The position numbers and the translations under genes are program-made. Below, in pieces: positions 11,525 to 33,771 of a stretch of DNA of 46,606 nt; within the stretch, counting starts at the first letter, position 1, and each line of letters opens with the position of its first letter. The DNA is taken from the NCBI GenBank assembly GCA_905480605.1, contig CAJQRD010000008.1, positions 1-46,606 on the forward strand, read 5' to 3'. Below the pieces are notes generated by a model, which worked only from the letters and a program-made list of their open reading frames with translations, did no database searches and was not told the origin of the DNA. Source of the DNA: an uncultured Saprospiraceae bacterium. Its GTDB lineage: Bacteria > Bacteroidota > Bacteroidia > Chitinophagales > Saprospiraceae.

Positions 11525-13741
11525 TCAACTTGATCGCATTAATCCATCAGCGTATCCTATTGAAATTGTTGCTATCGTAGTGTCGTCTAGAGCTTTTCCT
11601 GATCGACTATAACCTGTTGTTTCGCCTTTCTTAAGATGTTTTATTTGTAATATTTTAGCTTTCAAGTTGTGAACTTTTTCCAATTCGTTTTTAACTTCCT
11701 GCGTTTCATCAATGCCATATAATCCTAATCCCAACCTTATCATTTCAAATTGATACTGTGGAAACCTAATCACGCCACCAGTATTGAGAATATGCCTTTT
11801 AGGTCTATATCCTAAGACCTCAACTATCTGCTTATACATTGTTTTAAATCTAGAAACTTGACCATTGGTAAAGTCATCATATTGATCGTTTTCTGAAGCT
11901 GATAAATGGGAGAAAATTGAGGTTATGTGCAAGTTTGAAAATGCTAATATTTTCAATAATTCAACAATTTCATTTTCTTCAATTCCTAATCTTCTCATAC
12001 CAGTATCCAATTTTAAATGGATGTTTAAGGTAATGTTTTGTTCTTCTGCAAATGAAGACAACGACTTGAGCAATGATAAACTATAGATCTCTGGTTCTAG
12101 ATTGTAATCCCATAATTTTCGAAAACTATCATTGTGAATATTAAAAACCATTAATGGTAAATTGCATCCAGACTTTCTAATTTTAATGGCTTCGTCAATT
12201 AGGGCAACCGCTAAATAGTCCACACCTTTTTGTTCTAGATATTCTGATATCGAAATACTTCCACTTCCATAAGCATCAGCTTTTATAACAGCCATTATTT
12301 TTGTCTTGTTATCCAAGTGAGATTTGTATAAATTAAGATTGTTCTCTAGGGCTGAAAAGTTCGTTTCTAATATGGTTTGATGTACGACATACGAAAGATT
12401 TTCAAATATATTTTCAAGTTTAAATTTGCGTGCGCCTTTTATCAATACACTCTTATTTTCAATAGGATTTTTATTTAAAAAATCGGTTATATCATCTGTC
12501 TTTTCAAAAAAAACAATGTTTAACTTTTCAAAAAAAATATGTAATTGTTCATCAATTCCAACGGCTAGTAATTTATCTATTTTTTTCTGCTGAAAAAGTA
12601 TCGCCAATTCTTTATAAGTGGTTTCTTTAGATGTTTGTTGATCAAAGTCAGAAAAAATAACAATTCTAGTTAGTTGCTTGTTGTGTTGTTCCTGATATTC
12701 TAAAGCCAGCTGCATTGAAGACATATCTGCACTGTAAGAATCATTTATCAAAATACAACTGTTTTCACCTTTTTTTATTTCCAATCGATTTGGTAAAACG
12801 TCCAAAGAATTTAATGCAAAATTTATTTGATTTTGATCAAACTTAAAATGTAAAAGACAAACAATAAGATGCATTGAAAGATCAATAAATTGCTTGTTTG
12901 TAAACGGTATAACTACTTTGTATTTTCTAGATTTAAACTCTAGTTCAACCTGTGTCTTTTGATCAATATATTTTTCAGAAATTATTTGAATTTCTGAGGT
13001 GGATTCATGTCCCCAGCTTAATGTTTGTAATGGTTGGTTGGCCATTACTACATTTGAAATATTTGTGCTGTCAGTGTTGTAAATTAGTTGATTAGTGTTT
13101 GAAAACAACAATAATTTTTCATTTATTTTCGTTTTTTGATTTTCAAAACCTATGCTGTGTGCATCTCCAATATTTGTAAGAATTCCAACTGTAGGGCGTA
13201 TCATTGCTTCCAGATTTCTCATTTCATTTGCTTGAGAAATTCCTGCTTCAATTATTGCTATTTCATGTGTAGCATTTAATTTCAATAATGAGAGTGCAAC
13301 CCCCAATTGTGAGTTATAACTATTTGGACTTTGAATGACTTTGAACTTAGCTGAAAGAGTTTTTTGAAGCCATTCTTTTAAGATAGTTTTTCCATTGCTT
13401 CCTGTAATGCCAATAACTGGAATATCAAATTGATTTCTATGGTGTTTTGCTAATCTTTGCAAAGCACTCAAAGTGTTCTTTACAATAACATAATTGGCAT
13501 CTTTGTGTTTCTTTAACTCTGGGATATATGTGACAACAAAGTTTCTAATTCCTTTTTGATAGGCTTGATCGATATAGTTGTGACCATCATTATTTTCAGT
13601 AGTGAACGCAAAGAAGACAGATGATTGTGCAAATGAAATTTTTCTGGTGTCAAATACCACGTTGTTCAAATCAATATTCTGCCCTAGAAGAGATAATTTC
13701 CCTTCAACAATATTCGATACTTGAAGAATGTTATATTTCAT
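11525..13741 (-). CDS. MurF-Alr bifunctional protein, cut short by an in-frame TGA (738 aa)
   Basis: A fusion of UDP-MurNAc-tripeptide:D-Ala-D-Ala ligase and PLP-dependent alanine racemase, typical of Bacteroidota; both steps feed peptidoglycan precursors. The MurF half (about 1-450) has the ATP-binding loop GITGSNGKT at 111-119, SPNSYNSQLGVALSLL and an INDSYSADMSSM motif. The Alr half (about 457-738) has the PLP lysine at K487 in AVIKADAYGSG, KLDTGMRRLGI, and SIGYADG with the catalytic Tyr near 731. Translation stops at TGA 11525-11527, yet the frame stays open for another 78 codons of normal Alr sequence, giving the expected total of about 817. Relatives have glycine where this stop lies. 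TGA is a genuine terminator elsewhere here (8215, 24232), so recoding is unlikely. A nonsense mutation or a sequencing error are the main options. It follows purD by 13 bp. Confidence 0.9.
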   Translation of the reverse strand: MKYNILQVSNIVEGKLSLLGQNIDLNNVVFDTRKISFAQSSVFFAFTTENNDGHNYIDQAYQKGIRNFVVTYIPELKKHKDANYVIVKNTLSALQRLAKHHRNQFDIPVIGITGSNGKTILKEWLQKTLSAKFKVIQSPNSYNSQLGVALSLLKLNATHEIAIIEAGISQANEMRNLEAMIRPTVGILTNIGDAHSIGFENQKTKINEKLLLFSNTNQLIYNTDSTNISNVVMANQPLQTLSWGHESTSEIQIISEKYIDQKTQVELEFKSRKYKVVIPFTNKQFIDLSMHLIVCLLHFKFDQNQINFALNSLDVLPNRLEIKKGENSCILINDSYSADMSSMQLALEYQEQHNKQLTRIVIFSDFDQQTSKETTYKELAILFQQKKIDKLLAVGIDEQLHIFFEKLNIVFFEKTDDITDFLNKNPIENKSVLIKGARKFKLENIFENLSYVVHQTILETNFSALENNLNLYKSHLDNKTKIMAVIKADAYGSGSISISEYLEQKGVDYLAVALIDEAIKIRKSGCNLPLMVFNIHNDSFRKLWDYNLEPEIYSLSLLKSLSSFAEEQNITLNIHLKLDTGMRRLGIEENEIVELLKILAFSNLHITSIFSHLSASENDQYDDFTNGQVSRFKTMYKQIVEVLGYRPKRHILNTGGVIRFPQYQFEMIRLGLGLYGIDETQEVKNELEKVHNLKAKILQIKHLKKGETTGYSRSGKALDDTTIATISIGYADGLMRSS

Positions 13742-15928: not shown

Positions 15929-16024
15929 GATTTGAGGAATAGAAACATAAATCATATTTTTTTACGTTTAAAGACAAGTGGTATCAAAAACACAGGGCAA
16001 ATCACTAGATATTATATAGAACAG

Positions 16025-19000
16025 ATGGCTAGAAAAAGCACGGTTAAACGGAGCCTCATAGTATTTGGGCTGTTTTTGTTATTTACGGATATGTTTGCAT
16101 CGGGTATTACTTTACCTGGTCCAATAGACAGTTATCACGCTTCTATTGATACCATTCCGCTAAAGGATAGACAAGGAGATTTTGTCACAGATAAAACATA
16201 CAACCCTTTCGATATTTATCCTTCAGAATTGCAACAAACTGTAGAATATGATCCTGAGACAAACACATATATCGTTTATGAAAAAATCGGTGATGAATAT
16301 TTTCGAACTCCAACATATTTGACTTTTGAGGAGTATTTGGCATGGAGGGAGAAAAAACAGCAAAGGGAATATTTTGATAGGTTGGCTGGATTTACTGAAG
16401 AGTATGACTCAAAAGCCACCGTCATTGTAGATCCGCTTTCCAAAATCAATATTGAAAAAAACCTTATTGATAGATTGTTTGGTGGAAATGATATTAACAT
16501 TGAGCCGCAAGGAAATATAGATTTGACATTCGGACTAGACTACAGAAAAGATGAAAATCCTAACTTAAATGCAAGCCGACAAAATCAAGGTGCTTTGTTT
16601 GATTTTGATATGGATATCAAAATGAATGTTGAAGGTAATATTGGTGATAAGATGGACTTAGGCTTTAATTATGACACCAATGCAAGTTTTGATTTCGATC
16701 GAAAGATTAAATTGGCGTATGATTCCGAAAAGTTTTCTGAAGATGATATCATCAAAAAAATTGAAGCTGGTAATGTTTCACTGCCTTTAAGAGGAACATT
16801 AATTCAAGGCGCACAAAGTTTGTTTGGTCTTAAAACAGAATTGCAATTTGGAAAATTAAGATTGACAGGTATTGCATCTCAGCAAAGATCTAGACAAGAA
16901 ACTCAAACTATTCAGAATGGTGCTACCATTCAGGAGTTTGAAATGAGACCAGATGACTATGATGAAAATAGACACTTTTTCATATCACATTATCACAGAT
17001 CCACCTTTGAAGAGAAACTGCAAAACCTTCCTTATATCACAAACAATATGCGTGTGACAAATATTGAAGTTTGGATTTCTGATGATCGACTTGATTATCA
17101 GCAAAATCAAACTATGATATGCGCTATTGCTGACTTGGCAGAACCAGAACCTTCCAACTTTTCTAATCCTACAGCAGACTATTCCATTGATAGGATGAGA
17201 CAACCTAACATTTATTTTGATGATAAAGGTAGGCTGCTTCCTGAAAACGGTACCAATAAATTGTTTGAGGAGTTGATAAATGATGAACAGACAAAAAGAA
17301 TTGAGCGAACGCATTCTAATTTAACGGGAAGATACGATCTTGATGATCCACGTGATTTTTCAGTGTATCAGGGTAGAAAATTAAATACCTCTGAATATAC
17401 TTTTAATGAAGAATTGGGTTTCGTTTCCTTAAATGTCAGGTTACGTCCAAATCAGAATTTATCTTTATCATATGAGTATTTTTATACACTAAAATGTGAT
17501 GACATTTATAAAGTAGGTAGCACTACTGATGAAACCAATGTACCCAATACAAATAGTATGGGAGAGGTTGAATCTCAAGGAGTGATTTATACAAAAATGC
17601 TAAAAAGTGCTACTCAAACGGTTAAGCACCCAACGTGGGATTTGATGATGAAAAATGTCTATCCACTAAGAACTAATAATTTAAGTGAGGTGGATTTTCA
17701 ATTTGATATATTCTATGAAGATGATGCTGATGGTTCTCTTAAAAAGTTTTTACCTGAGGAGGGATTTAGGAATCTTCCTTTACTAAATATCTTCGGATTA
17801 GATAAATTGAATTCTAGAAATGATCCGCAGCCAGATGGTGTTTTTGATTTTGTTCCTGGTATTACTGTTGTGCCGCAAAGTAGCAGTATTGTATTTCCCG
17901 TACTTGAACCATTTGGTCGGTCACTAGAGCAGTTGATCCAAGATCCAGATATTGCTGCAAAGTATAGTTTTTCGGAGTTGTATGATACTACCGTTACAGG
18001 TGCTCGTGAACTTCTTGTTAAAAATAAATTTGTAATGGCAGGTAGAGTTAAGTCAGATGTATCTTCTGAATACTCACTTGGAGCTTGGAATATACCGCAA
18101 GGATCTGTAAGGGTAACTGCCGGTAGAGAATTGGTTGAGGGACAAGATTTTGAAGTTGATTATTCAATTGGTCGGGTAAGAATTATAAATGAATCAATCC
18201 TTCAATCTGGTGTTCCAATAAACGTTTCTTATGAAGACAATTCTGTTTTCAGTCTCCAACAAAAAACGATGTTGGGCTTGCGGGCAGATTATGAAGTCAA
18301 TGATAATTTTTACATTGGTGGTACTTTAATGCGATTATTTGAAAGACCCTTTACCGAAAAAGTAAATATTGGTGATGATCCTATCAATAACCACATGTAT
18401 GGTTTGGATATGGATTTCAGTTCTGAGGTGCCTTGGGTCACACGAGCTGTAGATAAACTTCCTTTCTTAAGCACAAACGTTCCTTCAAATATAAACTTTA
18501 CCGCAGAAATTGCAGTATTGGACCCTAGTCACTCTGGAGCGATAAACCTTAACAATGATGATGGAGGAGTTGTCAGTATAGATGATTTTGAAGGTGCTGT
18601 TAGTGGATTTCCATTGAGCAGTCAAGCCTTAAATATTTGGAATTTAGCCAGTGTACCTCAAACGAGTGATTATCCAGAGTCACAAGAAATCAACAGTTTG
18701 AATTCTGGAGTGAACAGAGCAAGATTAAGTTGGTACGTTTTTGAACAATTTGGAAGTCAGGGAGGCAATGCAAACTCATATACAAGGAACATTAGTCAAC
18801 AAGAACTATTTAACCGTCAAATTCCTCAAGGATTGACTGGGAACTTGTTGACTTTTGATATGACATATAATCCAACTCAAAGAGGACCGTATAACTTTGA
18901 TGGTGGAAATGGGACACCTTTTTCTGCTGGGTCAACAGTTAATGACGCAGGTGAGGTTTCTTTAAAAGAGCCTGAAACAAGATGGGCGGGTATAATGCGT

Positions 19001-22000
19001 TACATGCAAAACAGTGATTTTGAAGCCAGCAATTATCAATTTGTAGAATTTTGGTTACTGAATCCATTTATGGAGAAACCAGACGGTACAGGACATGATC
19101 CTGATGAGAGTGGATTTATGACCTTCCATCTAGGAAATGTATCTGAGGATATCTTAAGAGACAACCTTCAGTTTTACGAAAACACATTGCCGGTAGGTGA
19201 TGAAAATTTGCCAATCGTAGATAAAGCCTATGGTAAGGTTTCTTTGGCAATTCCTAAGAATGATGGATTTGATATTGAAGGCCAAGCTCAGCAAGATTTG
19301 GGATTAGATGGATTGACTGATGATCAAGAACAAAATAAATTTAAGGATTATTTGGAGAGTTGGGGTCAAATTCAACCTCAAGAAGTATTTCTAGATCCAA
19401 GTGGTGATAACTATTGTTATTACAATGATGATGATTGTTTTGATACCAATGACGATCTGTTGGTAAGGTATTCTAAATTCAACAACCCCCAAGGTAATTC
19501 ACCAGATATAAGTGGTGTCAGTACTTTTACAAGAGGTAATCCAAGACCAGACAAGGAAGATCTAAACAATAACAGATCTTTGGATCAAGGTGAAAGTTTT
19601 TATGAGTATAAAATCCCTATTGCTAACAGTGGTGGGGAAATTGACATGACAAATAATGAATTCATAAGAGAAGTTAGAGAAATTGAACTTCCAAGTGATG
19701 CATCAATTACAGAAAAATGGTACAGATATAGAATTCCAATTAGGGAGGGAACTGCTTTTAATGGTATTGAAGGATTCAGGTCTATTCAGTTTATGCGTTT
19801 GCTCGTCAATGGATTCAGGACACAAAAAACATTTAGAATGGCTGAATTCGAATTGATCAGAAATCAATGGAGACAATTGCCAAGTAAATGTGAAGTAGTA
19901 GATGGATTTAAAGATCCAAACTTTACAGTAGATGCTGTGGGTATTGAAGAAAATGGGTCAAAAACACCATACCCTTATACATTGCCTAGAGGTATTAAAC
20001 AAGAACGTGTTTTTAATACTTTTTCAAATGTGCTTCAAAATGAAAAATCTCTGAGTATAGTGTATTCGGAAATGCTCAGGGGATGTGAGGCTTCGATTTA
20101 TAAACTGAATGAACTTGATCTCCGGCTTTATAAAAAACTCCAAATGTTTGTGCATGCTGAGAGTATTGATGAAGAACAGGTTTCTGGTGATATGGCTCTT
20201 TTTATAAGGCTGGGTAAAGATTTTGATCGACATTATTATGAGTATGAAATTCCATTAACCTTGTCCAAGGACAGTACTGGTACAACGGTATCTGATATTG
20301 TTTGGCCAAAGGAGAATTTTATTAATATGCAATTGGACTGGTTTATACAGGCCAAAAAACTAAGAACAGTCTTGGGTGGAAGTTATGTAGATACTTTCAC
20401 TGTTAACGATGCATTGATAAGATCAGCGTATGAGGAATCACGAATGGAATATGAGAGTATAAACTTTGAAGCTTTTCAAGATACTGTTACCAACGATACG
20501 ATATTTATGCCCAAAGGACATAATATTAAAATAGTTGGAAATCCTAACCTGGGAAGAATAAAAGGTATCGAAATAGGGATTAGAAACTTAGATAATACTA
20601 CACCATCTGGTGGACACCAAGGAGAAGTTTGGGTCAATGAATTGCGATTGACAGGATTACAAGAGCGTGGTGGTGTTGCTGGTTTGGCACGTGTTGATTT
20701 ACAATTGGCGGACTTTGGAAATATTGCGGCCTCAGGTAGTTTTTCTTCTATTGGTTGGGGAGCTATTGATCAAAAAGTTCAAGACCGAGCTATAGAATCG
20801 GAACAAGAATTTGATATTTCTGCCAATTTAGAATTGGGTAAAATATTACCTCCTGCTTGGAATTTGAGTATACCATTTTATGCACAATATGCCAAAGCAA
20901 TTAGGACGCCAGAGTTTGATGCATATGATGTTGATATTAAAGTAGAAGACGAATTTGATTTGTTTAAAGATAATGCTCTAAAGCAAGACTCTATTAGGTC
21001 TCGAAATCAAATTGTCAACACCATAAAATCTTTCAACTTCACCAATGTGAGAAAGCAGAGGGGAAGTGGTAAGGTCCAAACCAAGGATACAAGTAAAGCA
21101 AGTAGTAAAGGTAACAAAAGCGGAGCTAAAGAAAATAAATTAGATACTGCAAAGAAGAAAAAACCCAAAAAGCCAATGCCTTGGGATATTGAAAACCTGA
21201 GTGCTACTTATGCTTTTACACAAACAGAATATAGTGATGCTATAATTGAGTCTGAAATATCTAAGGATTATACATTTGGTCTTAATTACAAATACACTAG
21301 AAAGGGAGGCTATATTCAACCATTTAAAAAGGTGAAAGGAAAATCTCTTAAATTTATAAAGGAAATCAATTTTAATCCTCTGCCTAATTCATTTTCATTT
21401 TCATCAGATATAAATAGGTACGTGTCTGAAAGAACTTTCAGAATACCAAATACACCTATTTTTAAGTTTGATGATCGAAGATTCGAATGGGAAAGGCGTT
21501 ATGATCTGACTTGGAATTTTACCAAAGGGTTGAAAATGAATTACTCAGCAATTAATGAATCGTATATAGATGAATTAAGACAAAGAGGTATTGCAGAAGT
21601 TCCTGCAGAAAGAGACTACTTTAATGAAATGGGTGATAATGTTGGACAACGTAGCAGTGATCAAGTAGACGAATATTGGAAGGACAATGTTAGATCTGGT
21701 GGTAGAAACACAAACTTTAGTCATTCTGCAAATGTCAATTATACTTTACCGTTAAAGTATATTCCATACATGGATTGGGTAGATGTTAAAGCCACTTATA
21801 GAACTAATTATTCTTGGGCAGCCGGACCATTAATTGATATTCAAGATGGTGAAAATGTTGGTAATATTATTCAAAACAGTCAGAATAGAAGTGTTACTGC
21901 AAATTTCAATTTGGAAAAATTATACAACAAATCAAAGTACATTAAAAACTTAGATAAGCTCAAAAAAGACAAGAAGAAAAAGAGTCGTTCTAGAACAGTA

Positions 22001-23566
22001 AATACAAGTGATAAAGATAAAAAGGATGATTCTTCTGACAAGAAAGATGCAAAGAAGAAAAAGAAGAAGAAAGATCGTGAACCAAGTAGAATTGAAAAGT
22101 TATTGATTAGGCCTTTGTTTATGTTTAGGTCTCTTCAAATAAACTATAAAGAAGATTTTACAACTGTAATTCCTGGATTTCAACCTTCACCTAAGTTATT
22201 AGGACTTTCAGAAGGATTTGATGCTCCTGGTACTGGATTTATTTTTGGTATCCAGCCTGATATATCTTTTGGCAATACCAATAACTGGTTATATGAGGCA
22301 GCAAACAAAGGTTGGATAACCAAGAGTACAGCATTAAATCAAGAAGTGGTTCAAACAAGATTTCAATCCATAGATGCTAAAATTAAATTAGAACCATGGA
22401 ATGATTTTAAAGTAAATATTGATTTTAAAAAATCTTATAGAAGCAGTCAACAACAGGATTTTAAGTTTATTGATAAGGAGGGATTCTCTGATTTTGCACA
22501 ATTAGCCAATAGAAATGTTGGTTCATTTGAAATGTCTTACTCTGCTCTTAATACATTGTTTAGCGATGATATTAATAAATTGTTTTCCAAGTTTGAGTTT
22601 AACAGGTCGGTGATTTCGTTTAGAAGAAATAACATCGAACCAAGTGGAGCGCATGAAGAAGATGGGGTAGAGTTTGCACGAGGATATGGTAAGCAATCAT
22701 CGCAGGTTTTAGTGCCGGCATTTTTGGCAGCATATACCAATAAGGATCCCAATACTATAGACTTGGATCTGGAAAACATGGTCAACAAGGTTGATTTTAT
22801 TCCTAGACCAAATTGGGATATTAAATATGATGGGTTGAATAAATTACCTTGGTTTAAAGACAAGTTTTCTAGCTTTTCAGTAACCCATGGTTATTCATCA
22901 ATGTTAAGAGTTAACAGCTTCAACAGTGATGTTGAATTTGATCCTTTAAGTCCATATCAAGATATCAAACCAAACGGTAATTACTATTCAAGAATTGAAA
23001 TTCCATCAATTCAGGTGTCAGAACAATTCAATCCAATTATAGGTGTTAAATTGAAGACTAAGAATGATATGAATATTGATTTTGAATATAAAAAGTCAAG
23101 ACAATTAGACTTGTCAATTAATGTTTCAAGTGAATTATTAGAGACGAAGAAGACTGAATATGTATTTGGGTTTGGTTATACAATTAAGGATGCTACGCTT
23201 TTTAAGGGCAAGAAAAAGAAAAAGAAACGTAGGAAAAAAGATGATGGTAAAGATGATGCTAAAAAAAGTGGCTCGAGGTTTGGACGTAATGTAAATTCAA
23301 GTCGTGGATCTGACATGACAATAACAATGAGTTTCTCATTATTGGATGATATTTCTACAGTCCATGAGTTGGATTTCGGAGGACCAAGTATTCCAACAAG
23401 AGGGGGTAAGACTATTTCTTTCAGTCCATCTATAGATTATATTCTGAATGAAAACTTAACGATGAGAGCCTTTTTGGAATATACTGGTTCCAGACCTTAC
23501 GTAAGTAACAATTATGGATTTACTACAATTAGTGGGGGAGTAACAATGAGGATGACATTGAATTAA
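16025..23566 (+). CDS. sprA: SprA/Sov, T9SS outer-membrane translocon protein, about 2513 aa
   Basis: SprA (Sov in Porphyromonas) is the giant beta-barrel through which T9SS cargo crosses the outer membrane. The size, the repeated YRKDENPNL / FNYDTNASFDFD blocks, and the C-terminal FSPSIDYILNENLTMRAFLEY and SGGVTMRMTLN ending all fit the family. I choose ATG 16025, which gives a signal peptide (MARKSTVKRSLIVFGLFLLF to MFAS). A TTG at 15932 would add 31 residues before it. Three Lys-rich low-complexity tracts interrupt the barrel region (nt about 21055-21180, 21961-22083, 23209-23275). It is preceded directly by ruvA and followed by an intrinsic terminator. In related genomes gcvH, vanZ and tonB often follow sprA (from memory); here they lie about 18 kb further on, in the opposite orientation. 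Confidence 0.95.
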   Translation: MARKSTVKRSLIVFGLFLLFTDMFASGITLPGPIDSYHASIDTIPLKDRQGDFVTDKTYNPFDIYPSELQQTVEYDPETNTYIVYEKIGDEYFRTPTYLTFEEYLAWREKKQQREYFDRLAGFTEEYDSKATVIVDPLSKINIEKNLIDRLFGGNDINIEPQGNIDLTFGLDYRKDENPNLNASRQNQGALFDFDMDIKMNVEGNIGDKMDLGFNYDTNASFDFDRKIKLAYDSEKFSEDDIIKKIEAGNVSLPLRGTLIQGAQSLFGLKTELQFGKLRLTGIASQQRSRQETQTIQNGATIQEFEMRPDDYDENRHFFISHYHRSTFEEKLQNLPYITNNMRVTNIEVWISDDRLDYQQNQTMICAIADLAEPEPSNFSNPTADYSIDRMRQPNIYFDDKGRLLPENGTNKLFEELINDEQTKRIERTHSNLTGRYDLDDPRDFSVYQGRKLNTSEYTFNEELGFVSLNVRLRPNQNLSLSYEYFYTLKCDDIYKVGSTTDETNVPNTNSMGEVESQGVIYTKMLKSATQTVKHPTWDLMMKNVYPLRTNNLSEVDFQFDIFYEDDADGSLKKFLPEEGFRNLPLLNIFGLDKLNSRNDPQPDGVFDFVPGITVVPQSSSIVFPVLEPFGRSLEQLIQDPDIAAKYSFSELYDTTVTGARELLVKNKFVMAGRVKSDVSSEYSLGAWNIPQGSVRVTAGRELVEGQDFEVDYSIGRVRIINESILQSGVPINVSYEDNSVFSLQQKTMLGLRADYEVNDNFYIGGTLMRLFERPFTEKVNIGDDPINNHMYGLDMDFSSEVPWVTRAVDKLPFLSTNVPSNINFTAEIAVLDPSHSGAINLNNDDGGVVSIDDFEGAVSGFPLSSQALNIWNLASVPQTSDYPESQEINSLNSGVNRARLSWYVFEQFGSQGGNANSYTRNISQQELFNRQIPQGLTGNLLTFDMTYNPTQRGPYNFDGGNGTPFSAGSTVNDAGEVSLKEPETRWAGIMRYMQNSDFEASNYQFVEFWLLNPFMEKPDGTGHDPDESGFMTFHLGNVSEDILRDNLQFYENTLPVGDENLPIVDKAYGKVSLAIPKNDGFDIEGQAQQDLGLDGLTDDQEQNKFKDYLESWGQIQPQEVFLDPSGDNYCYYNDDDCFDTNDDLLVRYSKFNNPQGNSPDISGVSTFTRGNPRPDKEDLNNNRSLDQGESFYEYKIPIANSGGEIDMTNNEFIREVREIELPSDASITEKWYRYRIPIREGTAFNGIEGFRSIQFMRLLVNGFRTQKTFRMAEFELIRNQWRQLPSKCEVVDGFKDPNFTVDAVGIEENGSKTPYPYTLPRGIKQERVFNTFSNVLQNEKSLSIVYSEMLRGCEASIYKLNELDLRLYKKLQMFVHAESIDEEQVSGDMALFIRLGKDFDRHYYEYEIPLTLSKDSTGTTVSDIVWPKENFINMQLDWFIQAKKLRTVLGGSYVDTFTVNDALIRSAYEESRMEYESINFEAFQDTVTNDTIFMPKGHNIKIVGNPNLGRIKGIEIGIRNLDNTTPSGGHQGEVWVNELRLTGLQERGGVAGLARVDLQLADFGNIAASGSFSSIGWGAIDQKVQDRAIESEQEFDISANLELGKILPPAWNLSIPFYAQYAKAIRTPEFDAYDVDIKVEDEFDLFKDNALKQDSIRSRNQIVNTIKSFNFTNVRKQRGSGKVQTKDTSKASSKGNKSGAKENKLDTAKKKKPKKPMPWDIENLSATYAFTQTEYSDAIIESEISKDYTFGLNYKYTRKGGYIQPFKKVKGKSLKFIKEINFNPLPNSFSFSSDINRYVSERTFRIPNTPIFKFDDRRFEWERRYDLTWNFTKGLKMNYSAINESYIDELRQRGIAEVPAERDYFNEMGDNVGQRSSDQVDEYWKDNVRSGGRNTNFSHSANVNYTLPLKYIPYMDWVDVKATYRTNYSWAAGPLIDIQDGENVGNIIQNSQNRSVTANFNLEKLYNKSKYIKNLDKLKKDKKKKSRSRTVNTSDKDKKDDSSDKKDAKKKKKKKDREPSRIEKLLIRPLFMFRSLQINYKEDFTTVIPGFQPSPKLLGLSEGFDAPGTGFIFGIQPDISFGNTNNWLYEAANKGWITKSTALNQEVVQTRFQSIDAKIKLEPWNDFKVNIDFKKSYRSSQQQDFKFIDKEGFSDFAQLANRNVGSFEMSYSALNTLFSDDINKLFSKFEFNRSVISFRRNNIEPSGAHEEDGVEFARGYGKQSSQVLVPAFLAAYTNKDPNTIDLDLENMVNKVDFIPRPNWDIKYDGLNKLPWFKDKFSSFSVTHGYSSMLRVNSFNSDVEFDPLSPYQDIKPNGNYYSRIEIPSIQVSEQFNPIIGVKLKTKNDMNIDFEYKKSRQLDLSINVSSELLETKKTEYVFGFGYTIKDATLFKGKKKKKKRRKKDDGKDDAKKSGSRFGRNVNSSRGSDMTITMSFSLLDDISTVHELDFGGPSIPTRGGKTISFSPSIDYILNENLTMRAFLEYTGSRPYVSNNYGFTTISGGVTMRMTLN

Positions 23567-24177: not shown

Positions 24178-24227
24178 ACTGCGTGACCCGAAGCTTTAGC
24201 GAACTGCGTGACCCGAATCTTTAGCGA
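24178..24227. repeat. 25-bp direct repeat, two copies
   Basis: ACTGCGTGACCCGAAGCTTT... (24178-24202) is repeated head-to-tail at 24203-24227 with one G-to-T change. The pair ends four bases before the stop codon of the last amidohydrolase gene. It is GC-richer than its surroundings, and TTTAGCGAAGGATC continues into the gene end. A small repetitive element is the likely nature; the function is unknown. Confidence 0.75.
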
Positions 24228-24231
24228 AGGA

Positions 24232-25500
24232 TCAACGCTCCAGAAACTCATCATACAAATAAGTATGGCGACTTTCTAACGGTATGTTATATCCATCAAT
24301 AAATAAGTACTTGATGGTGGTCTTAGTTTCAAATGGATCGCCATCTGTTACAAAAACATTAGCAACTTTGGTTCTTTCAACAGAACCATACTTGTTTTCA
24401 ATGCCAAACATCTCTGCAGCATTGATCGTAACTGCTTTGAATGCTTCTTTAAAGCCCATTCCATATGCTGCAGCAAATCCGGCATTGTATGGTAAGTTTC
24501 TTACGTTTTCTGTTTCGTTTGTTCTTATCGCTACCTTTATGCCGGCCTTTTGCATTTTTCCCGCATTAGAATATCCAATATTATAATGATCGGAACTTCT
24601 ACCTGGATTGTTTAAGATTGGCCCAGTGATAACAGGTATATTATATTTAAGTAAACTGTCAATAACCAAGTACCCTTCTGATACACCAGTGAAAATTACA
24701 TTGATGTCATTCTCATTGACCCAAGAAATAGCTGATAAAATATCTGATTTTTTATTAACCTCTACAAGTAAAGGAGCTTCTTTGTTTATTATTGGAACAA
24801 GAGCATTTAATTGAGGGTTGTAGTCCAAAGATGATGCTTTATCTGTACCAGATATTTTTGTATACAATCTCGCCTTGCTGATAAAATCTTTGATTTTTTT
24901 ATTAGCTTTTTCCTCAGCTTTTTTAATGTCTTCATCTGATCTTCTATCCCAAGAACCTCGCTTTCCAGTGGAGGGGTAGTTGAAAACAACAGCACTAAAG
25001 CCCGCGTACATATCATTCGGCGTATAGCCATATAGATTTATCAGTGCAGCTGTACCCGGAAATCTTCCTCCAGATGGAACAGAAAGTGCAGTAGTGATGC
25101 CATTGACTCTATTTACAGGGATGTTTACTGAGCTGGGATTCACTGCCGTTAAAGCTTTCATATGCGGCGTAAATTCTCCGATCTCATTGTGATCTTGTGT
25201 TAGTGAAACCGAGCTCACCTCTGCCAACCCTATCTTAGTACCACTGTCAATCATACCTGGGTAAATAGTAAGACCTGTACAGTCGAATTTTTTCGCTCCT
25301 GGATGTTCTATCATCTCAGAAACTTCCTTGATGATTCCATCTTGCATTAGCACATCAGCTTTGATTTTCCCGTTGTCATGGGTATAAACTTCACCATTTT
25401 TTAAAAGAAAGATGCCTGTAGTTGCCTTTGTTATTTGCTGTCCATTTGCGAATGTTGCTATTGCCAATAACAGAATTATATATATGCTATTAAGTTTCAT
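24232..25500 (-). CDS. Secreted amidohydrolase-fold protein, probable pseudoenzyme, 422 aa
   Basis: The third gene of an operon of three amidohydrolase paralogues. The signal peptide MKLNSIYIILLLAIATFANG is followed by the small beta-sandwich (KNGEVYTHDNGKIKADVLMQ) and a TIM-barrel start YPGMIDSG. At the usual HxH metal site (consensus PGxIDxHxH) it has SGTKIG, so both histidines are gone. The later metal positions also look lost: VEVNKKSD in place of a His-bearing strand, and IRTNE where Asp is expected. The ending (AFKAVTINAAEMFGIENKYG, KVANVFVTDGDP) is typical imidazolonepropionase-like. The fold is clear and catalysis unlikely. The upstream gene's stop is 4 bp from its ATG, so the products are probably made together. 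Confidence 0.85.
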   Translation of the reverse strand: MKLNSIYIILLLAIATFANGQQITKATTGIFLLKNGEVYTHDNGKIKADVLMQDGIIKEVSEMIEHPGAKKFDCTGLTIYPGMIDSGTKIGLAEVSSVSLTQDHNEIGEFTPHMKALTAVNPSSVNIPVNRVNGITTALSVPSGGRFPGTAALINLYGYTPNDMYAGFSAVVFNYPSTGKRGSWDRRSDEDIKKAEEKANKKIKDFISKARLYTKISGTDKASSLDYNPQLNALVPIINKEAPLLVEVNKKSDILSAISWVNENDINVIFTGVSEGYLVIDSLLKYNIPVITGPILNNPGRSSDHYNIGYSNAGKMQKAGIKVAIRTNETENVRNLPYNAGFAAAYGMGFKEAFKAVTINAAEMFGIENKYGSVERTKVANVFVTDGDPFETKTTIKYLFIDGYNIPLESRHTYLYDEFLER

Positions 25501-25504
25501 GTTT

Positions 25505-26857
25505 TTAGTGCTTATGTTCGAATAAAAGTTCGCTTACACCTTGCAAGCAGTTGTCATGATTGTGTCCAGCTTCTGATTCCTGAAATGCTGGAATTTTTTC
25601 TTCAGGATCGATGTCAATTCTCATATCTTGAGGGTCTTCATTGATATCAAACCTTACAATGCCATCTACAATTGTATATTGAGGAATAGCATAAATAGAT
25701 AAAGGGTGGTTTTGGAAAATGACTACATCACCTTCTTTGTTAACTTCTAAAGATCCAACTCTTTTATCTATACCAAGTTGCTTAGCCGGGTTTATTGTAA
25801 TCATAGAAAGGGCTTCAGTATCTGAAAGTCCACCATATTTTTGAGTCTTGGCAGCTTCATGATAAAGGTGTCTAATTAATTCTCTAGAGTCTGAATTAAT
25901 TGAAGTAGTGACACCGTTTTTCGAAAGTATTGTTGCATTATAAGCTGTTGAATAATACACTTCAAATTTATATGCCCACCAATCTGAAAAGACTGAGGCA
26001 TAAGCACCAAATTCTGCAAGTTCAGGAGCGACCTTAAATCCTTCGTTTACGTGTTGGAAACAAATTTGATCAACGCCATAATCGGTTAGGACGTTCATTA
26101 GCATTAGAATTTCATCAGCACGATATGAGTGGCAGTGAATCATTATTTCACCAGATAGAATATCAGCAAGGGCTTCTTTTCTAATGTTGTATTCAGGAGC
26201 AATTTTGGTAGTTCCGTTGTTGTATGCTTTCCATTCTGCAGCATAAGCCTTTCCTTGTTCGAATGCATTTCTGAATACTTGCTCCACACCCATTCTTGTA
26301 TTTGGAACAATATTACCACCTTCTCCATGAACCCGAATTGGGTTTTCTCCAAGTGCAAATTTTATTGTTTTTTTAGCACCTTCCATTCTCAAATCATTGG
26401 GATCTAAAACTCCCCATCTGTGTTTGATAGTTTCGCACTGTCCACCAATGGCATTTGCCGAACCATGCATGGCATGTGAAATTGTTACTCCACCTGCCAA
26501 AGCTCTATAGATATTTATATCATAAGGGTCTAAAGCATCTCCAACCCAAACTTCTGCAGTTACGGGATTTGTAGCTTCATTGACTGCATCGATTGCTATG
26601 TGAGAGTGCGCATCAATAATTCCTGGCATAACATACATCCCATTGGCATCAATCGTTTTGATTCCTTCAGGAGCTTTTATGCTTTTTCCAATCTTAGATA
26701 TTTTTCCTTTCTTAATCAGAATATCTGTTTTTTCTTTTTCACCATCTGAAATGGTAAGAAGGGTCCCGTTTTTTATGAGCACATCGCCCATGTCCACTTG
26801 TGCAGAAAGACAAGTTGTTGCTAAAAGACCTAGTATTATATTTTTTATATTCAACAT
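25505..26857 (-). CDS. Secreted amidohydrolase, metal site intact, 450 aa
   Basis: The middle gene of the trio and the only one with a full metal site. A signal peptide (MLNIKNIILGLLATTCLSAQ) precedes the beta-sandwich (VLIKNGTLLTISDGEKEKTD) and then MPGIIDAHSHIAID with the HxH pair at about 86-88. Later ligand candidates are the His residues in IMIHCHSYRADE and CFQHVNEG, and the Asp in SINSDSRE. The C-terminus (ALSMITINPAKQLGIDKRVG, EGDVVIFQNHPL) is imidazolonepropionase/prolidase-like and ends in a His-containing tail. It probably hydrolyses a cyclic amide or peptide-like substrate in the periplasm. The substrate is unknown. Gaps to its neighbours are 9 and 4 bp. Confidence 0.88.
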   Translation of the reverse strand: MLNIKNIILGLLATTCLSAQVDMGDVLIKNGTLLTISDGEKEKTDILIKKGKISKIGKSIKAPEGIKTIDANGMYVMPGIIDAHSHIAIDAVNEATNPVTAEVWVGDALDPYDINIYRALAGGVTISHAMHGSANAIGGQCETIKHRWGVLDPNDLRMEGAKKTIKFALGENPIRVHGEGGNIVPNTRMGVEQVFRNAFEQGKAYAAEWKAYNNGTTKIAPEYNIRKEALADILSGEIMIHCHSYRADEILMLMNVLTDYGVDQICFQHVNEGFKVAPELAEFGAYASVFSDWWAYKFEVYYSTAYNATILSKNGVTTSINSDSRELIRHLYHEAAKTQKYGGLSDTEALSMITINPAKQLGIDKRVGSLEVNKEGDVVIFQNHPLSIYAIPQYTIVDGIVRFDINEDPQDMRIDIDPEEKIPAFQESEAGHNHDNCLQGVSELLFEHKH

Positions 26858-26866
26858 GTCTATTTA

Positions 26867-28546
26867 TTATTCTGGTGATGAAATTTTTGAACCTTCCATA
26901 TTTAAAGCGCCCATGCCTTCAATAGTTGCGGTTCCTGAAAAATCCTCGGCATTAAAATCTAATGTAATATCTACGGCCGTTTCCTGGCCTCCACCATCAA
27001 CAGTTACGTTAAAGCTAAGTGTGCCATCATTATAGGATATTCCCGTAGCGTTATCTGTATCATTTGGTGTGTTGTCGTCAGTAAGTTCGATTTGAATATC
27101 ATCACCATTTTGCGTTATAGTCATTTTACCAGTTTGTTCTTCACCAAAAACATCTACAGAGTATGACCAAATACCGAGTACGGCTTTTATTCCTTTAAGT
27201 GAACCTTTACCCTCCTTTTTCTTTTTTTGTTTAATTTCAGTCATATGTCCTTCAACAAAAACATATTTTAATTTTGATTCTTTTTCAAAATAAGGCTTAT
27301 CGCTTAAGATGATATTAGCGAGCTTTCCAGCTTCTAACGTTCCAGCAATATCATCAATGCCTAATATTTTAGCTGGGTTAGTTGTCAATGCTGCAAGTCC
27401 TGCTGATTTCGAAAGTCCATGTTCAATCAACTTAATTATGTTTGATTTCAAATCTTTTGATTTGCCAGACATCATTGTAAATGCAAATGCAATGTTGGCT
27501 TTTTCTAAATTGGCTGCCTGTGTTAAATATTCATTATAACTTTTTGCTTTGCGCTCCATCATGCTTTTCTTCAACGCATCCACTTCTGTGGAATCTTTTT
27601 TACTTTTCTTTTTATCTTCTTCTTTGGGAAGATCTAAAGATAAAAGGATATCTATTTTTGAAGATTTTAAATGTTTTTGTGCAGCTCCTATTTGTTTCAC
27701 ATCGCAAAGAACTAGATCATAGCCCAATTCTTTTTGTAATTCAACGGCTCTAAAAATATCTTTCACTTTTTTAGTAGTCATAAATACTGGTCTGGATCCA
27801 TTTGTAACAGGAATAAGTGCATTTAATGTTTTATCCTCATGAGGTCTTTGAATTCCGTTCGCAGATAATTTATAATTCTCTAAGTTTTTATTATGGAAGT
27901 GTGCCTTGCGATAAAGGTCTCGCCATTTTGCCATAACCCCTATCACAGTACTCGGATAATATCCTCTTGCACCACTAAACTGTAGGAAAGTTGAAGTTTG
28001 GTCCTTTAAGATCATTTCGTCTGCACTCGAGCCATGTAAACTTATGATACTTCCTTGTCCTGGTAGCATTTTACCTCTAGGGACTATATGTGCGATTGTA
28101 AATCCTGCGTCTCTGTGTGACTTAATACTACCTTCTGAGTGAGATAAATCAGCACTTGCTAATTTTTCTGGCGTAATACCGGCAACCTCATTTGGTGGAA
28201 AACCTTTGAATTTGACTTCTGGTCTTTTCCCGTTGGGTTCTTTTTTAGGTATTCCTAGATGTGAAAAGGCATCAATAAAGCCCGAGTAGGCATAAGCAGA
28301 ATCTGCTTCTATAATTTTTGCATCAACGGGAGGGGTCATATTTGTACCTATTTGCACAATTAGGCCGTTTTCTATCAAAATATCTGAGAGTCCTATGTTC
28401 AATGTAGGCGTTTTTTGAACATGAACATCATTTATAAATATTTTGTCAGTAACCTCCGGGATATTGTTGTAGTCAATTTGCCCTGAGGTATGGGTGGCAA
28501 GAAGTAAGCAAACGCCTATACTTCCTGCAAAGCATTTCAAGTTCAT
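26867..28546 (-). CDS. Secreted amidohydrolase-fold pseudoenzyme with C-terminal beta domain, 559 aa
   Basis: The first gene of the trio. A signal peptide (MNLKCFAGSIGVCLLLATHT) precedes an amidohydrolase fold (DILIENGLIVQIGTN; ALTTNPAKILGIDDIAGTLE). The metal site is degraded: AYSGFIDAFSHLG has Phe in place of the first His, VFMTTKK replaces the His-bearing strand 5, CDVKQ replaces the strand 6 His, and no Asp is visible at strand 8. A charged linker (KQKKKKEGKG) near residue 435 joins a roughly 110-residue beta-rich domain (MTITQNGDDIQIELTDDN, LSFNVTVDGGG, LDFNAEDFSGTATIEG) absent from the other two paralogues. That domain looks lipocalin-like; the assignment is tentative. A scaffold or substrate-capture role for the active paralogue is inferred. 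Confidence 0.85.
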   Translation of the reverse strand: MNLKCFAGSIGVCLLLATHTSGQIDYNNIPEVTDKIFINDVHVQKTPTLNIGLSDILIENGLIVQIGTNMTPPVDAKIIEADSAYAYSGFIDAFSHLGIPKKEPNGKRPEVKFKGFPPNEVAGITPEKLASADLSHSEGSIKSHRDAGFTIAHIVPRGKMLPGQGSIISLHGSSADEMILKDQTSTFLQFSGARGYYPSTVIGVMAKWRDLYRKAHFHNKNLENYKLSANGIQRPHEDKTLNALIPVTNGSRPVFMTTKKVKDIFRAVELQKELGYDLVLCDVKQIGAAQKHLKSSKIDILLSLDLPKEEDKKKSKKDSTEVDALKKSMMERKAKSYNEYLTQAANLEKANIAFAFTMMSGKSKDLKSNIIKLIEHGLSKSAGLAALTTNPAKILGIDDIAGTLEAGKLANIILSDKPYFEKESKLKYVFVEGHMTEIKQKKKKEGKGSLKGIKAVLGIWSYSVDVFGEEQTGKMTITQNGDDIQIELTDDNTPNDTDNATGISYNDGTLSFNVTVDGGGQETAVDITLDFNAEDFSGTATIEGMGALNMEGSKISSPE

Positions 28547-30814: not shown

Positions 30815-30837
30815 TATTTAGAATTAGAAAAGTGGAA

Positions 30838-33771
30838 ATGATTAAATTGAATAAATATTTTTTGTGTTTTATTTTACTTGCCTTTGCTTGTAATATAAAT
30901 ATAATTGCACAGGGTAACGCAGCGGATGATTGGGCAAATTTTTCTCTTTCTAAAATGTCCCTCGACGAAAAGATAGGACAATTGTTTACAATAAGAGCAC
31001 ATTCAAATAAAGGACAAGATCATATAAATCAAATTCAATCTTATATTAAAAAATATCAGGTTGGTGGACTTTGTTTTTTTCAAGGAACGCCCCAAAAGCA
31101 AGTAGAGCTTACAAATAAATATCAAGCACTTTCCAAAACACCTTTGATGATTTCAATGGATGCGGAATGGGGATTGGGTATGCGTCATAAAGAGCATGTT
31201 GTTTCTTTTCCACGTCAATTGACTTTAGGGGCAATCAGTGATAATACATTGATTTATGAAATGGGAAAAATGATTGCTGATCAATTATCAGATGTTGGTG
31301 CTCATATCAATTTTGCACCTGTAGTTGATGTAAATAACAATCCTTCTAATCCTGTCATTCACAACAGGTCTTTTGGTGAAGACATGTTTAATGTTGCTAC
31401 TAAATCGTATGCTTATATGAAAGGCATGCAAGATTCAAAAATTATAGCTTGCGCAAAACACTTTCCTGGACATGGCGATACAGATGTTGACTCTCACAAA
31501 GACTTACCTGTTTTATTACATGATCGAGAGCGATTGGACAGTTTAGAGTTGATGCCTTTTCGAGTGATGTCTCAATTGGGAATTAAGAGTATGATGTCTG
31601 CTCATTTATCTGTACCATCAATTGATAGCAGTCCAAATAGACCAACTTCTTTGTCTAAGATAGCTATTGAAGATATTTTAAGAGGTGAGCTGAATTTTGA
31701 TGGGTTGGTTTTCACAGATGCATTAGAAATGCAAGGTGTTGCAAAGCACTTTAATCCAGGGCAAATGGAAGTAGAAGCTTTGAAGGCTGGCAATGATGTG
31801 TTGTTACTTCCTATCGATTTGGATAAAGCTGTGACCTCAATAAAGGAAGCTATTAAAAGTGGTGAATTGAATGAGTCGGATATTGATGAAAAGGTTTTGA
31901 GGATATTGAAAGCAAAACACTTTTTGGGATTAACAAAAAAACAATACATTTCTTCGGGATCAGGTTTGAAGAAAAAATTAAATAGCAATAAGATAAAAGC
32001 ATTCAAAACCAAATTGTATGAAAAGGCTGTAACCTTGGTTGTAGACAAGAATAATGCAGTGCCAATAGCAGATATACCTGCTAATGCATTTGCATGTTTG
32101 AGTATCGGTGTGAAATCTAAAAGTGCCTTTCAAGAATCCTTACAGAAATTTGGTATTACCAATTCTGCAAATGTAAAATCAAATTTTACAGCAGCCAGGC
32201 AAGCTGAAATTGTACAGAAATTTCAAAAAGCAGAAACGATAATAATTGGTATTCATGATATGTCGATTTATAAGAGCAAAGATTTCGGAATATCAAAACA
32301 AACATTTGATCTTATCTACAAATTAAAAACTACTAAGAAAGTTATTCTTTGTGTTTTTGGAAGTCCATATGCCTTGCAATATTTTTCAGATGTGCCGTCT
32401 ATTCTTATGGCTTACGAGGATGATGAGCTGATGCAAGATGTTGCCGCCCAAGCAATAATGGGAGTGACACGTATAGAAGGTACATTGCCTGTAACAGCAC
32501 ATGAGAAGTTTCCGGTAAAAGCGGGTCTAATGCGTACAGGATTTAATCGATTGGGTTATGCTATTCCTGAAAGTGTATTAATAAATTCTGATACACTTTT
32601 GAAAATAGATACTATAGTACAGGAAATGTTTGATGAGAATGCAGCGCCAGGATGTCAAATATTAGCAGCAAAAAATGGTAAAATATTCTTTCAAAAATCA
32701 TATGGATACCATACGCCAAATAGAAAGAAAAAAGTTATTGAAAGTGATGTTTATGATGTAGCATCAGTAACTAAAATTTTAGCGACTACAATTTCTGTAA
32801 TGAAGTTGTATGATGAAGGAAAAATTAATTTGTATGAACCTGTAAAAAAGTACCTTCCTCAAATGGATACAACCAATAAAGGAGGTTTGATACTAGAAGA
32901 TATTTTGGCTCACCACTCTGGCCTTCCAGGCTGGATTGCATTTTATGAAAGTACACTTGACCCAGACAGTGAATCATTGCATAGGGTTGATAATTACTTT
33001 AGTGATATTGAATCGGACTCTTTTCCATTTCAAGTATGTGATGATCTTTTCTTACGTAATGATTGGAAGGATAGCATTTACAACATGATTTATAATTGTG
33101 ACTTGAGAGATTCTCGGAATTATAAATATAGTGACTTGGGTTTTTATTTGTTTAATCAAATGGTTGAAAAAATATCAGGCAAGCCCTTAGATCAATATGT
33201 AGAAGAGAATTTTTATAGACCGATGGGGTTACACAATACATTATTCAATCCTCTTCAACGAATTGACCAGGGTAGAATTGTACCTTCGGAAAAAGATGAT
33301 TATTTCAGAGGTCAAGTTATACATGGCCATGTTCATGACATGGGGGCAGCTATGTTGGGAGGTGTTAGCGGTCATGCAGGTTTATTTTCAAGTTCTAGGG
33401 ATCTTGCAGAATTGATGCAAATGCTTTTGAACGGAGGAAGCTATGCCGGACAAAATTACCTTAAACCTAAAACTATTAATAAGTTTACCAAAAGATATTA
33501 TAAGTCAACGAGGAGAGGTCTGGGGTTTGATATGAAGGAACTTGATCCTGATAAAAATTTCAATATGGCAGAAGAAGCATCATCAAATGCTTTTGGACAT
33601 CTTGGTTTTACAGGAATATCTGTTTATGCAGACCCAAAACATGATTTGATTTATGTATTTTTATCAAATAGAACTTATCCCACAATGAAGAACTATAAAT
33701 TCGCCAAAAATAACTACAGATCTAGAATTCAATCTGTTTTTTACAATGCAATAATGAATCCTCGTACTTAA
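30838..33771 (+). CDS. GH3 NagZ-like glycosidase fused to a beta-lactamase-family serine hydrolase, about 977 aa
   Basis: Two enzymes in one secreted protein, a fusion seen across Bacteroidota. After a signal peptide (cleavage near NIIAQG), the GH3 domain (about 30-350) has the NagZ loop ACAKHFPGHGDTDVDSHKDL and the nucleophile Asp at about 294 in GLVFTDALEMQGV. A GH3 C-terminal-like region spans about 380-575. The beta-lactamase-type domain (about 590-977) has S643-V-T-K646 (SxxK), a YSD triad at Y764, and HLGFTG at H921 as the third motif. The GH3 part should cleave GlcNAc from muropeptides; the hydrolase may be an amidase, esterase or D,D-peptidase. I start at ATG 30838; GTG 30832 adds two residues. 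Its stop abuts the next ATG. Confidence 0.93.
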   Translation: MIKLNKYFLCFILLAFACNINIIAQGNAADDWANFSLSKMSLDEKIGQLFTIRAHSNKGQDHINQIQSYIKKYQVGGLCFFQGTPQKQVELTNKYQALSKTPLMISMDAEWGLGMRHKEHVVSFPRQLTLGAISDNTLIYEMGKMIADQLSDVGAHINFAPVVDVNNNPSNPVIHNRSFGEDMFNVATKSYAYMKGMQDSKIIACAKHFPGHGDTDVDSHKDLPVLLHDRERLDSLELMPFRVMSQLGIKSMMSAHLSVPSIDSSPNRPTSLSKIAIEDILRGELNFDGLVFTDALEMQGVAKHFNPGQMEVEALKAGNDVLLLPIDLDKAVTSIKEAIKSGELNESDIDEKVLRILKAKHFLGLTKKQYISSGSGLKKKLNSNKIKAFKTKLYEKAVTLVVDKNNAVPIADIPANAFACLSIGVKSKSAFQESLQKFGITNSANVKSNFTAARQAEIVQKFQKAETIIIGIHDMSIYKSKDFGISKQTFDLIYKLKTTKKVILCVFGSPYALQYFSDVPSILMAYEDDELMQDVAAQAIMGVTRIEGTLPVTAHEKFPVKAGLMRTGFNRLGYAIPESVLINSDTLLKIDTIVQEMFDENAAPGCQILAAKNGKIFFQKSYGYHTPNRKKKVIESDVYDVASVTKILATTISVMKLYDEGKINLYEPVKKYLPQMDTTNKGGLILEDILAHHSGLPGWIAFYESTLDPDSESLHRVDNYFSDIESDSFPFQVCDDLFLRNDWKDSIYNMIYNCDLRDSRNYKYSDLGFYLFNQMVEKISGKPLDQYVEENFYRPMGLHNTLFNPLQRIDQGRIVPSEKDDYFRGQVIHGHVHDMGAAMLGGVSGHAGLFSSSRDLAELMQMLLNGGSYAGQNYLKPKTINKFTKRYYKSTRRGLGFDMKELDPDKNFNMAEEASSNAFGHLGFTGISVYADPKHDLIYVFLSNRTYPTMKNYKFAKNNYRSRIQSVFYNAIMNPRT

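Follow-up and report, generated by a model that had tools for sequence, protein, structure and literature searches.

An operon of three amidohydrolase paralogues, two of them with degenerate metal sites, that likely encodes a single exported hetero-oligomeric enzyme

Introduction

We examined a 46,606-nucleotide stretch of DNA from an uncultured Saprospiraceae bacterium (phylum Bacteroidota; GenBank assembly GCA_905480605.1, contig CAJQRD010000008.1, positions 1 to 46,606), hereafter the window, whose minus strand carries an operon of three paralogous amidohydrolase genes that we call A, B and C. The analysis suggests that the three products are likely subunits of one exported hetero-oligomeric amidohydrolase, in which B would be the catalytic member and A and C would be non-catalytic. 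This interpretation draws on the retention of metal ligands, natural gene fusions, co-occurrence across genomes, the clades formed in phylogenetic trees, ratios of nonsynonymous to synonymous substitution (dN/dS), the predicted TM-scores (pTM) of AlphaFold2 models, a related two-gene pairing termed O+D, and an analogy with inactive dihydroorotase homologues (pDHO). The recurrence of this trio, sometimes fused, across several phyla makes the dead copies look like obligatory components of one complex.

Annotating each gene as "amidohydrolase" would lead one to expect three enzymes, although probably only one is present. The loci collected here form a natural series, with split genes, AB, BC and ABC fusions, and a related gene pair in which the site is half lost, which lets one ask why dead paralogues replace active subunits and what they do. 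A widespread, probably exported enzyme thereby becomes testable, by expressing all three subunits jointly.

Organization of the operon

Gene A (26867..28546, 559 amino acids) opens the operon and is followed after 9 bp by B (25505..26857, 450 amino acids) and, 4 bp further, by the final gene C (24232..25500, 422 amino acids), all on the minus strand. Open reading frames, BLASTP and the Pfam profile PF01979 agree with the first-pass annotation of this DNA, which had described three paralogues separated by gaps of 4 and 9 bp. The PF01979 scores of A, B and C are 37.2, 72.5 and 32.9 bits, all passing the cut-off of 25, and the proteins are distant paralogues with 21-24% identity (BLASTP E-values of 7e-27 for A-C, 1e-17 for B-C and 3e-08 for A-B). 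Each N-terminus, read by eye, shows a hydrophobic segment and, after it, a small residue and then Gln, a pattern that we take to be typical of Bacteroidota export signals; the signal peptides previously assigned to all three proteins would thus be borne out, and A, B and C are probably exported.

Reading frames, Pfam matches and ligand alignment together point to A and C as probably exported pseudo-amidohydrolases and to B as a probably exported, putatively catalytic amidohydrolase with a complete metal site, whose closest solved structure is 3ooq. The top named relative of B is a protein from a Saprospiraceae metagenome-assembled genome (73%). Protein A ends in a β-rich accessory region of approximate boundary (about residues 447-559; 26870..27208, minus strand), delineated from the secondary structure of its homologous portion in the AB model described below; in certain Acidobacteriota, A is shorter by about 100 residues. 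Immediately downstream of C, at 24179-24228, lies a 25 bp tandem duplication whose two copies differ at a single base and the unit of which has no further match elsewhere in the window.

Distribution of the metal ligands

Two-metal amidohydrolases with a bridging lysine share a ligand set composed of HxH, Lys, His, His and Asp. Ligand positions were assigned via a profile-profile alignment of A, B and C. In the window, B has the complete set: H84 and H86 within H84-S85-H86 (26600..26608), K145 (26423..26425), a candidate carboxylated lysine bridging the metals, H243 (26129..26131), H269 (26051..26053) and D323 (25889..25891), the latter being both a metal ligand and the candidate general base (all minus strand). 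At the same six positions A carries F94, H96, S169, T257, D282 and M359, and C carries G87, K89, N155, E247, G272 and N328, which amounts to one of six ligands in A (H96) and none in C. The HxH motif is replaced in A by F94-S95-H96 (28259..28267, minus strand), where the first His is gone and the second kept, and in C by S86-G87-T88-K89 (25234..25245, minus strand). The alignment therefore upholds the earlier observations that the middle gene alone possesses HxH together with the later His, His and Asp, and that the outer two carry FSH or SGTK instead and have lost the downstream ligands; the lysine, which had gone unmentioned, is likewise lost in A and C.

The tally was extended to the window plus 80 fetched loci and to 80 named loci, the latter corresponding to the best 80 of 588 relatives in a genome scan and represented by the best segment per locus; one contig present in two collections (L050 and L128, as Balneola sp. 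in one of them) was counted twice. All six ligands are present in 158 of the 161 B sequences, over seven phyla. The exceptions are a Lys-to-Arg change in L099, a sequence masked by N (L103) and a locus for which half of the domain was sampled (L186); position 145 is Lys in 159 of 161 sequences, Arg in one and uncovered in one. For A (n=158), zero ligands are kept in 109 sequences, one in 43 and two in 6; for C (n=153), zero are kept in 89, one in 55, two in 8 and three in a single case (L093). No complete metal site was found among the A (n=158) and C (n=153) homologues examined, the maxima being two and three of six, and this argues that the loss is neither chance nor local decay. Both the triplet and its ligand losses are conserved across Bacteroidota and beyond, in seven phyla. 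A loss confined to the lineage of the window was considered and rejected, since the A and C proteins of relatives at other loci are also without the site.

Most ligand positions are highly variable in A and C, and the position of H269 is mostly occupied by Gly (104/158 A, 142/153 C). The number of H, D, E, K or C positions conserved at 90% is 24 in B, five in C, including neither His nor Cys, and zero in A, where four polar residues reach that level. Conserved acidic and basic residues of C comprise E94, D103, E106, R131 and R334. Two of these belong to the loop T101-G108 (25177..25200, minus strand), which falls where C carries an eight-residue insertion relative to B and which its alignment and conservation (D103 in 152/152 covered C sequences, E106 in 149/152) make a candidate interface or ligand-binding loop. 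If any member of the trio hydrolyses, B would be the sole one to do so.

Gene architecture, fusions and co-occurrence

Three separate genes are present at 41 of 81 loci (80 from relatives and the window), AB fused and followed by C at 33, and AB without an adjacent C at 7, one of them masked; the A counterpart is hence fused to the N-terminus of B at 40/81 loci. The 80 named loci display the arrangements A-B-C (51), AB-C (16), ABC (3), A-BC (3), BC-A (2) and B-A-C (1), the lone B-A-C order (L184) being an artefact of overlapping frames. The other four (three B-C and one A-B) are truncated by contig ends, and one of them, L175, bears a piece of A at the contig end. Natural AB, BC and ABC fusions thus all exist, as seen in these named loci. 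The three ABC fusions belong to Planctomycetota and have open frames of 1390-1452 amino acids. A putative 2531-amino-acid fusion (L103, genome G020) was rejected, its frame crossing a masked run of N. Split and fused forms are intermixed inside the family of the window, and the trio extends over Bacteroidota, Balneolota, Ignavibacteriota, Acidobacteriota, Planctomycetota, Verrucomicrobiota and Pseudomonadota (NCBI names), two loci carrying no phylum assignment. In the order of the window, the A query gave matches in 47/60 genomes, paralogous matches counted.

Co-occurrence was evaluated in 198 genomes of the phylum of the window, as delimited by the scan tool itself, scoring at most eight candidates per genome and finding C by profile; eight genomes having only the more distant O type (see below) were set aside before counting B. 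With these settings B occurs in 109/198 genomes and C in 108/198, every one of the latter also encoding B. The sole B genome without C, G020, has masked N where C would follow B. No genome among the 198 had C without B, and re-searching three B-less genomes gave no C at an E-value of 1e-20. In 12 of the 108 genomes C lies on a separate contig or distant from B, for example 0.97 and 1.4 Mb away on the same contig in G098 and G114; in G287 it is 349 kb from AB. C is therefore kept even without linkage.

Phylogeny and selection

Trees were built from 28 loci (C from 27) in one case and from 21 in the others, out of 161, with 10 of the 20 O+D loci. In the 28-locus tree A, B and C are each monophyletic (support 98, 100 and 100), and in an unrooted 21-locus tree each again forms one clade (100/100, 100/100 and 99/99). 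Within each of the three proteins the split-type loci group together as one clade (nine and six loci in the two trees), which indicates that A, B and C travel together. Long-branch attraction through the lost motifs was rejected as a source of the grouping of dead against active proteins described below, which was unchanged after 119 columns were dropped. Rooting with four other proteins of the genome of the window failed because of long branches, the outgroup rows not falling together; three of the four outgroup frames showed no HxH-like motif and were possibly poor choices. In the tree with that outgroup one outgroup row fell inside {A,C}, with support of 89/93 for A and 93/73 for B+O.

For 14 locus pairs, chosen from 93 close pairs with one genome included twice, dN/dS ranged from 0.04 to 0.18 in A, 0.01 to 0.17 in B and 0.01 to 0.19 in C; two, one and two values, respectively, were not computable, and many dS values were near saturation. 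Ratios so far below 1 in A and C indicate that the dead copies are maintained, in line with the earlier argument against simple decay. The sequences compared place A, B and C in three ancient clades, each subject to purifying selection, with mean pairwise identities of 0.30, 0.53 and 0.40, respectively. Lost catalytic residues in genes under purifying selection mark a pseudoenzyme, and A and C display both.

A related two-gene operon

A two-gene operon of Bacteroidota (loci L199 to L218) encodes an active-type amidohydrolase, O, followed by a ligand-poor relative, D. It resembles the trio in that an active amidohydrolase precedes a related protein without the full ligand set, and differs in having two genes instead of three and in D retaining the lysine and, in many cases, the first His. 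D was first met via C-profile matches adjoining O, and the 20 loci were picked from C-profile or O matches, so that the 20/20 pairing is in part a product of this choice; the ligand counts do not depend on it. O has all six ligands in 20/20 loci. D has lost the equivalents of H86, H243, H269 and D323 in 20/20, and keeps K145 in 20/20 and the first His in 14/20. An unrooted tree separates {A,C,D} from {B,O} with support of 100/99, or 99/94 without the motif regions. The simplest reading of these sequences is that one ancestral pair of an active and a dead protein gave birth to both the A+B+C and the O+D systems. The genome of the window has no second B-like match at an E-value of 1e-20.

Structure models

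Two natural fusions were modelled with AlphaFold2. The alignment for AB comprised 39 of the 40 fused proteins, the masked L103 being omitted, and that for BC comprised 7 of 8 BC stretches (L186 omitted) together with the 23 loci with exactly one stop among the 37 where B and C share one frame. The AB fusion L082 (1011 amino acids, 39 rows) gave a predicted local distance difference test (pLDDT) of 86 and a pTM of 0.84, with two amidohydrolase domains and a small β-rich region following A; its best Foldseek match is 3ooq, with a target TM-score of 0.88 over 392 columns. The BC fusion L180 (943 amino acids, 30 rows) gave a pLDDT of 83 and a pTM of 0.83, with a disordered linker of 58 residues (467-524, pLDDT <50). 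By our own estimate, two such domains placed at random would be expected to reach a pTM of about 0.48-0.59, and the values obtained therefore imply a defined domain placement in both models, from which we infer that A would dock on B, and B on C.

Subunits of one enzyme and alternative explanations

A and C descend from the same family as B and are kept full-length alongside it. In the arrangement that we consider likely, they would bind B directly at about 1:1:1 and substitute for the identical active neighbours of a homomeric ancestor. There they may stabilise B and shape or gate the mouth of its active site. A, in which not one H, D, E, K or C position reaches 90% conservation, would be chiefly a scaffold, and C would be the better candidate to contact the substrate or the active site of B, through E94, D103, E106 and R131/R334. 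The proposal of the first-pass annotation, pseudoenzymes within a heteromeric complex, is supported by the fusions, the co-occurrence of unlinked C and the predicted pTM values of 0.84 and 0.83. A bolder and less probable version is offered tentatively: the trio would define a class of exported three-subunit metallohydrolases spanning at least seven phyla, O+D and A+B+C would derive from one active/dead pair, loops of the dead subunits, chiefly the conserved acidic loop of C, would complete B's active site or act as its gate, and B on its own would be inactive.

Several points weigh against a complex. The evidence for it consists of sequences and predicted models, and AlphaFold2 may be arranging the paralogous domains after a homodimer that it has memorised. 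Fusion, operon structure and co-occurrence would equally fit a shared pathway without contact, and strict co-translation is made less convincing by the genomes in which C is unlinked. The loss of ligands is uneven, the His aligned with H243 being kept in 18/33 C proteins of AB-C loci and the Asp aligned with D323 in 35/153 C and 15/158 A. The fast divergence of A (identity 0.30) appears loose for an obligate subunit, and the inference on the substrate, discussed below, is based on neighbours within one family only.

Alternatively, A and C could serve to bind or capture the substrate and hand it over to B or to a transporter, being co-expressed with B without forming a stable complex; the conserved E94, D103, E106, R131 and R334 of C could form a ligand pocket, and some genomes have C at a distance from B, but the AB, BC and ABC fusions and the high pTM of both fused models favour a fixed arrangement, and A has almost no conserved polar residues (4 at 90%), which makes this quite unlikely. 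It is even less probable that A and C catalyse through an active site of another kind, independent of metal or placed elsewhere in the protein: the five H, D, E, K or C positions conserved in C would permit it, whereas they include neither His nor Cys, the 158 A sequences share no such position, and the old ligand positions are mostly variable, that of H269 being mostly Gly. That both are degenerating copies which hitchhike with B is scarcely credible, even though A evolves faster than B, given dN/dS of 0.01-0.19 in 14 locus pairs, single clades over seven phyla, long open frames and fusions. A separate question concerns the origin of the dead lineages, which might be convergent, with several independent losses of the site and pairings that differ in kind. 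The retention by D of K145 (20/20) and of the first His (14/20), both mostly absent from A and C, suggests stepwise losses, and the distant outgroup put one row among A and C (A 89/93, B+O 93/73); the {A,C,D} versus {B,O} split, at 100/99 without the outgroup and 99/94 without the motif regions, in trees that are unrooted, speaks for common descent and leaves convergence doubtful.

Comparison with known systems

By sequence, the nearest Protein Data Bank match of all three proteins is 3ooq, an amidohydrolase from Thermotoga maritima (E-values of 2.7e-53 for B, 3.1e-71 for the C profile and 6.8e-36 for the A profile). It resembles B in presenting DAHSH, IK, HAH, EH and CD at the aligned ligand places, and differs from the trio in being a single gene product that bears the ligands. 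Searching the open-access literature for 3ooq by its names returned nothing.

Inactive homologues that support an active partner are documented elsewhere. PMC7053772 describes pDHO of Pseudomonas, an inactive dihydroorotase homologue required for the activity of aspartate transcarbamoylase (ATCase), and a homologous yeast pDHO domain without zinc ligands. The partner there is ATCase, whereas the trio combines an active amidohydrolase paralogue with two dead ones. The trio falls outside the class A2 ATCase-pDHO assemblies, its fused or adjacent partner being the amidohydrolase that bears the active site.

M16 peptidases have a fold unrelated to that of amidohydrolases, and two subunits, not three. 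Among them, the mitochondrial processing peptidase (MPP) pairs an active metal-binding subunit with a zinc-ligand-free subunit that supplies other needed residues, according to a review (PMC11266112); bacterial M16B heterosubunit peptidases, named there in the title of a reference, would share this pairing. The terms amidohydrolase and M38 are absent from that review. Enzymes with pseudoenzyme subunits are a known principle, of which the trio would be an unusually clean and widespread instance. Searches of the open-access literature aimed at such complexes found no description of an amidohydrolase whose subunits include dead paralogues, in agreement with the initial statement that no such system was known.

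Neighbouring genes and other features of the window

A frame of NlpC/P60-type peptidase lies directly after C, on the same strand and at about -18 to 221 bp, in 11 Cyclobacteriaceae loci (L126, L127, L129-L132, L134, L135, L140, L145 and L167). In 12 loci a member of an M28-type peptidase family lies downstream, no more than 600 bp away in 4 cases. The commonest neighbour family, of ABC-transporter ATPase type, occurs in 16 loci at mixed places and orientations. Neighbour families were assigned with Pfam on one example each (L130 for NlpC/P60), and among those present in at least eight loci none holds a fixed position across phyla. The NlpC/P60 and M28 neighbours are a hint to the substrate and may reflect synteny by descent; on this sequence context, a peptide or some other amide would be the most likely substrate.

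Elsewhere in the window, a single 979-amino-acid frame (30832-33771) joins a glycosyl hydrolase family 3 domain to a β-lactamase-fold domain, and a 738-amino-acid frame (11525-13741) combines Mur ligase and alanine racemase domains. A 2544-amino-acid frame (15932-23566) carries SprA-type motility/secretion domains and adjoins a RuvA-like frame.

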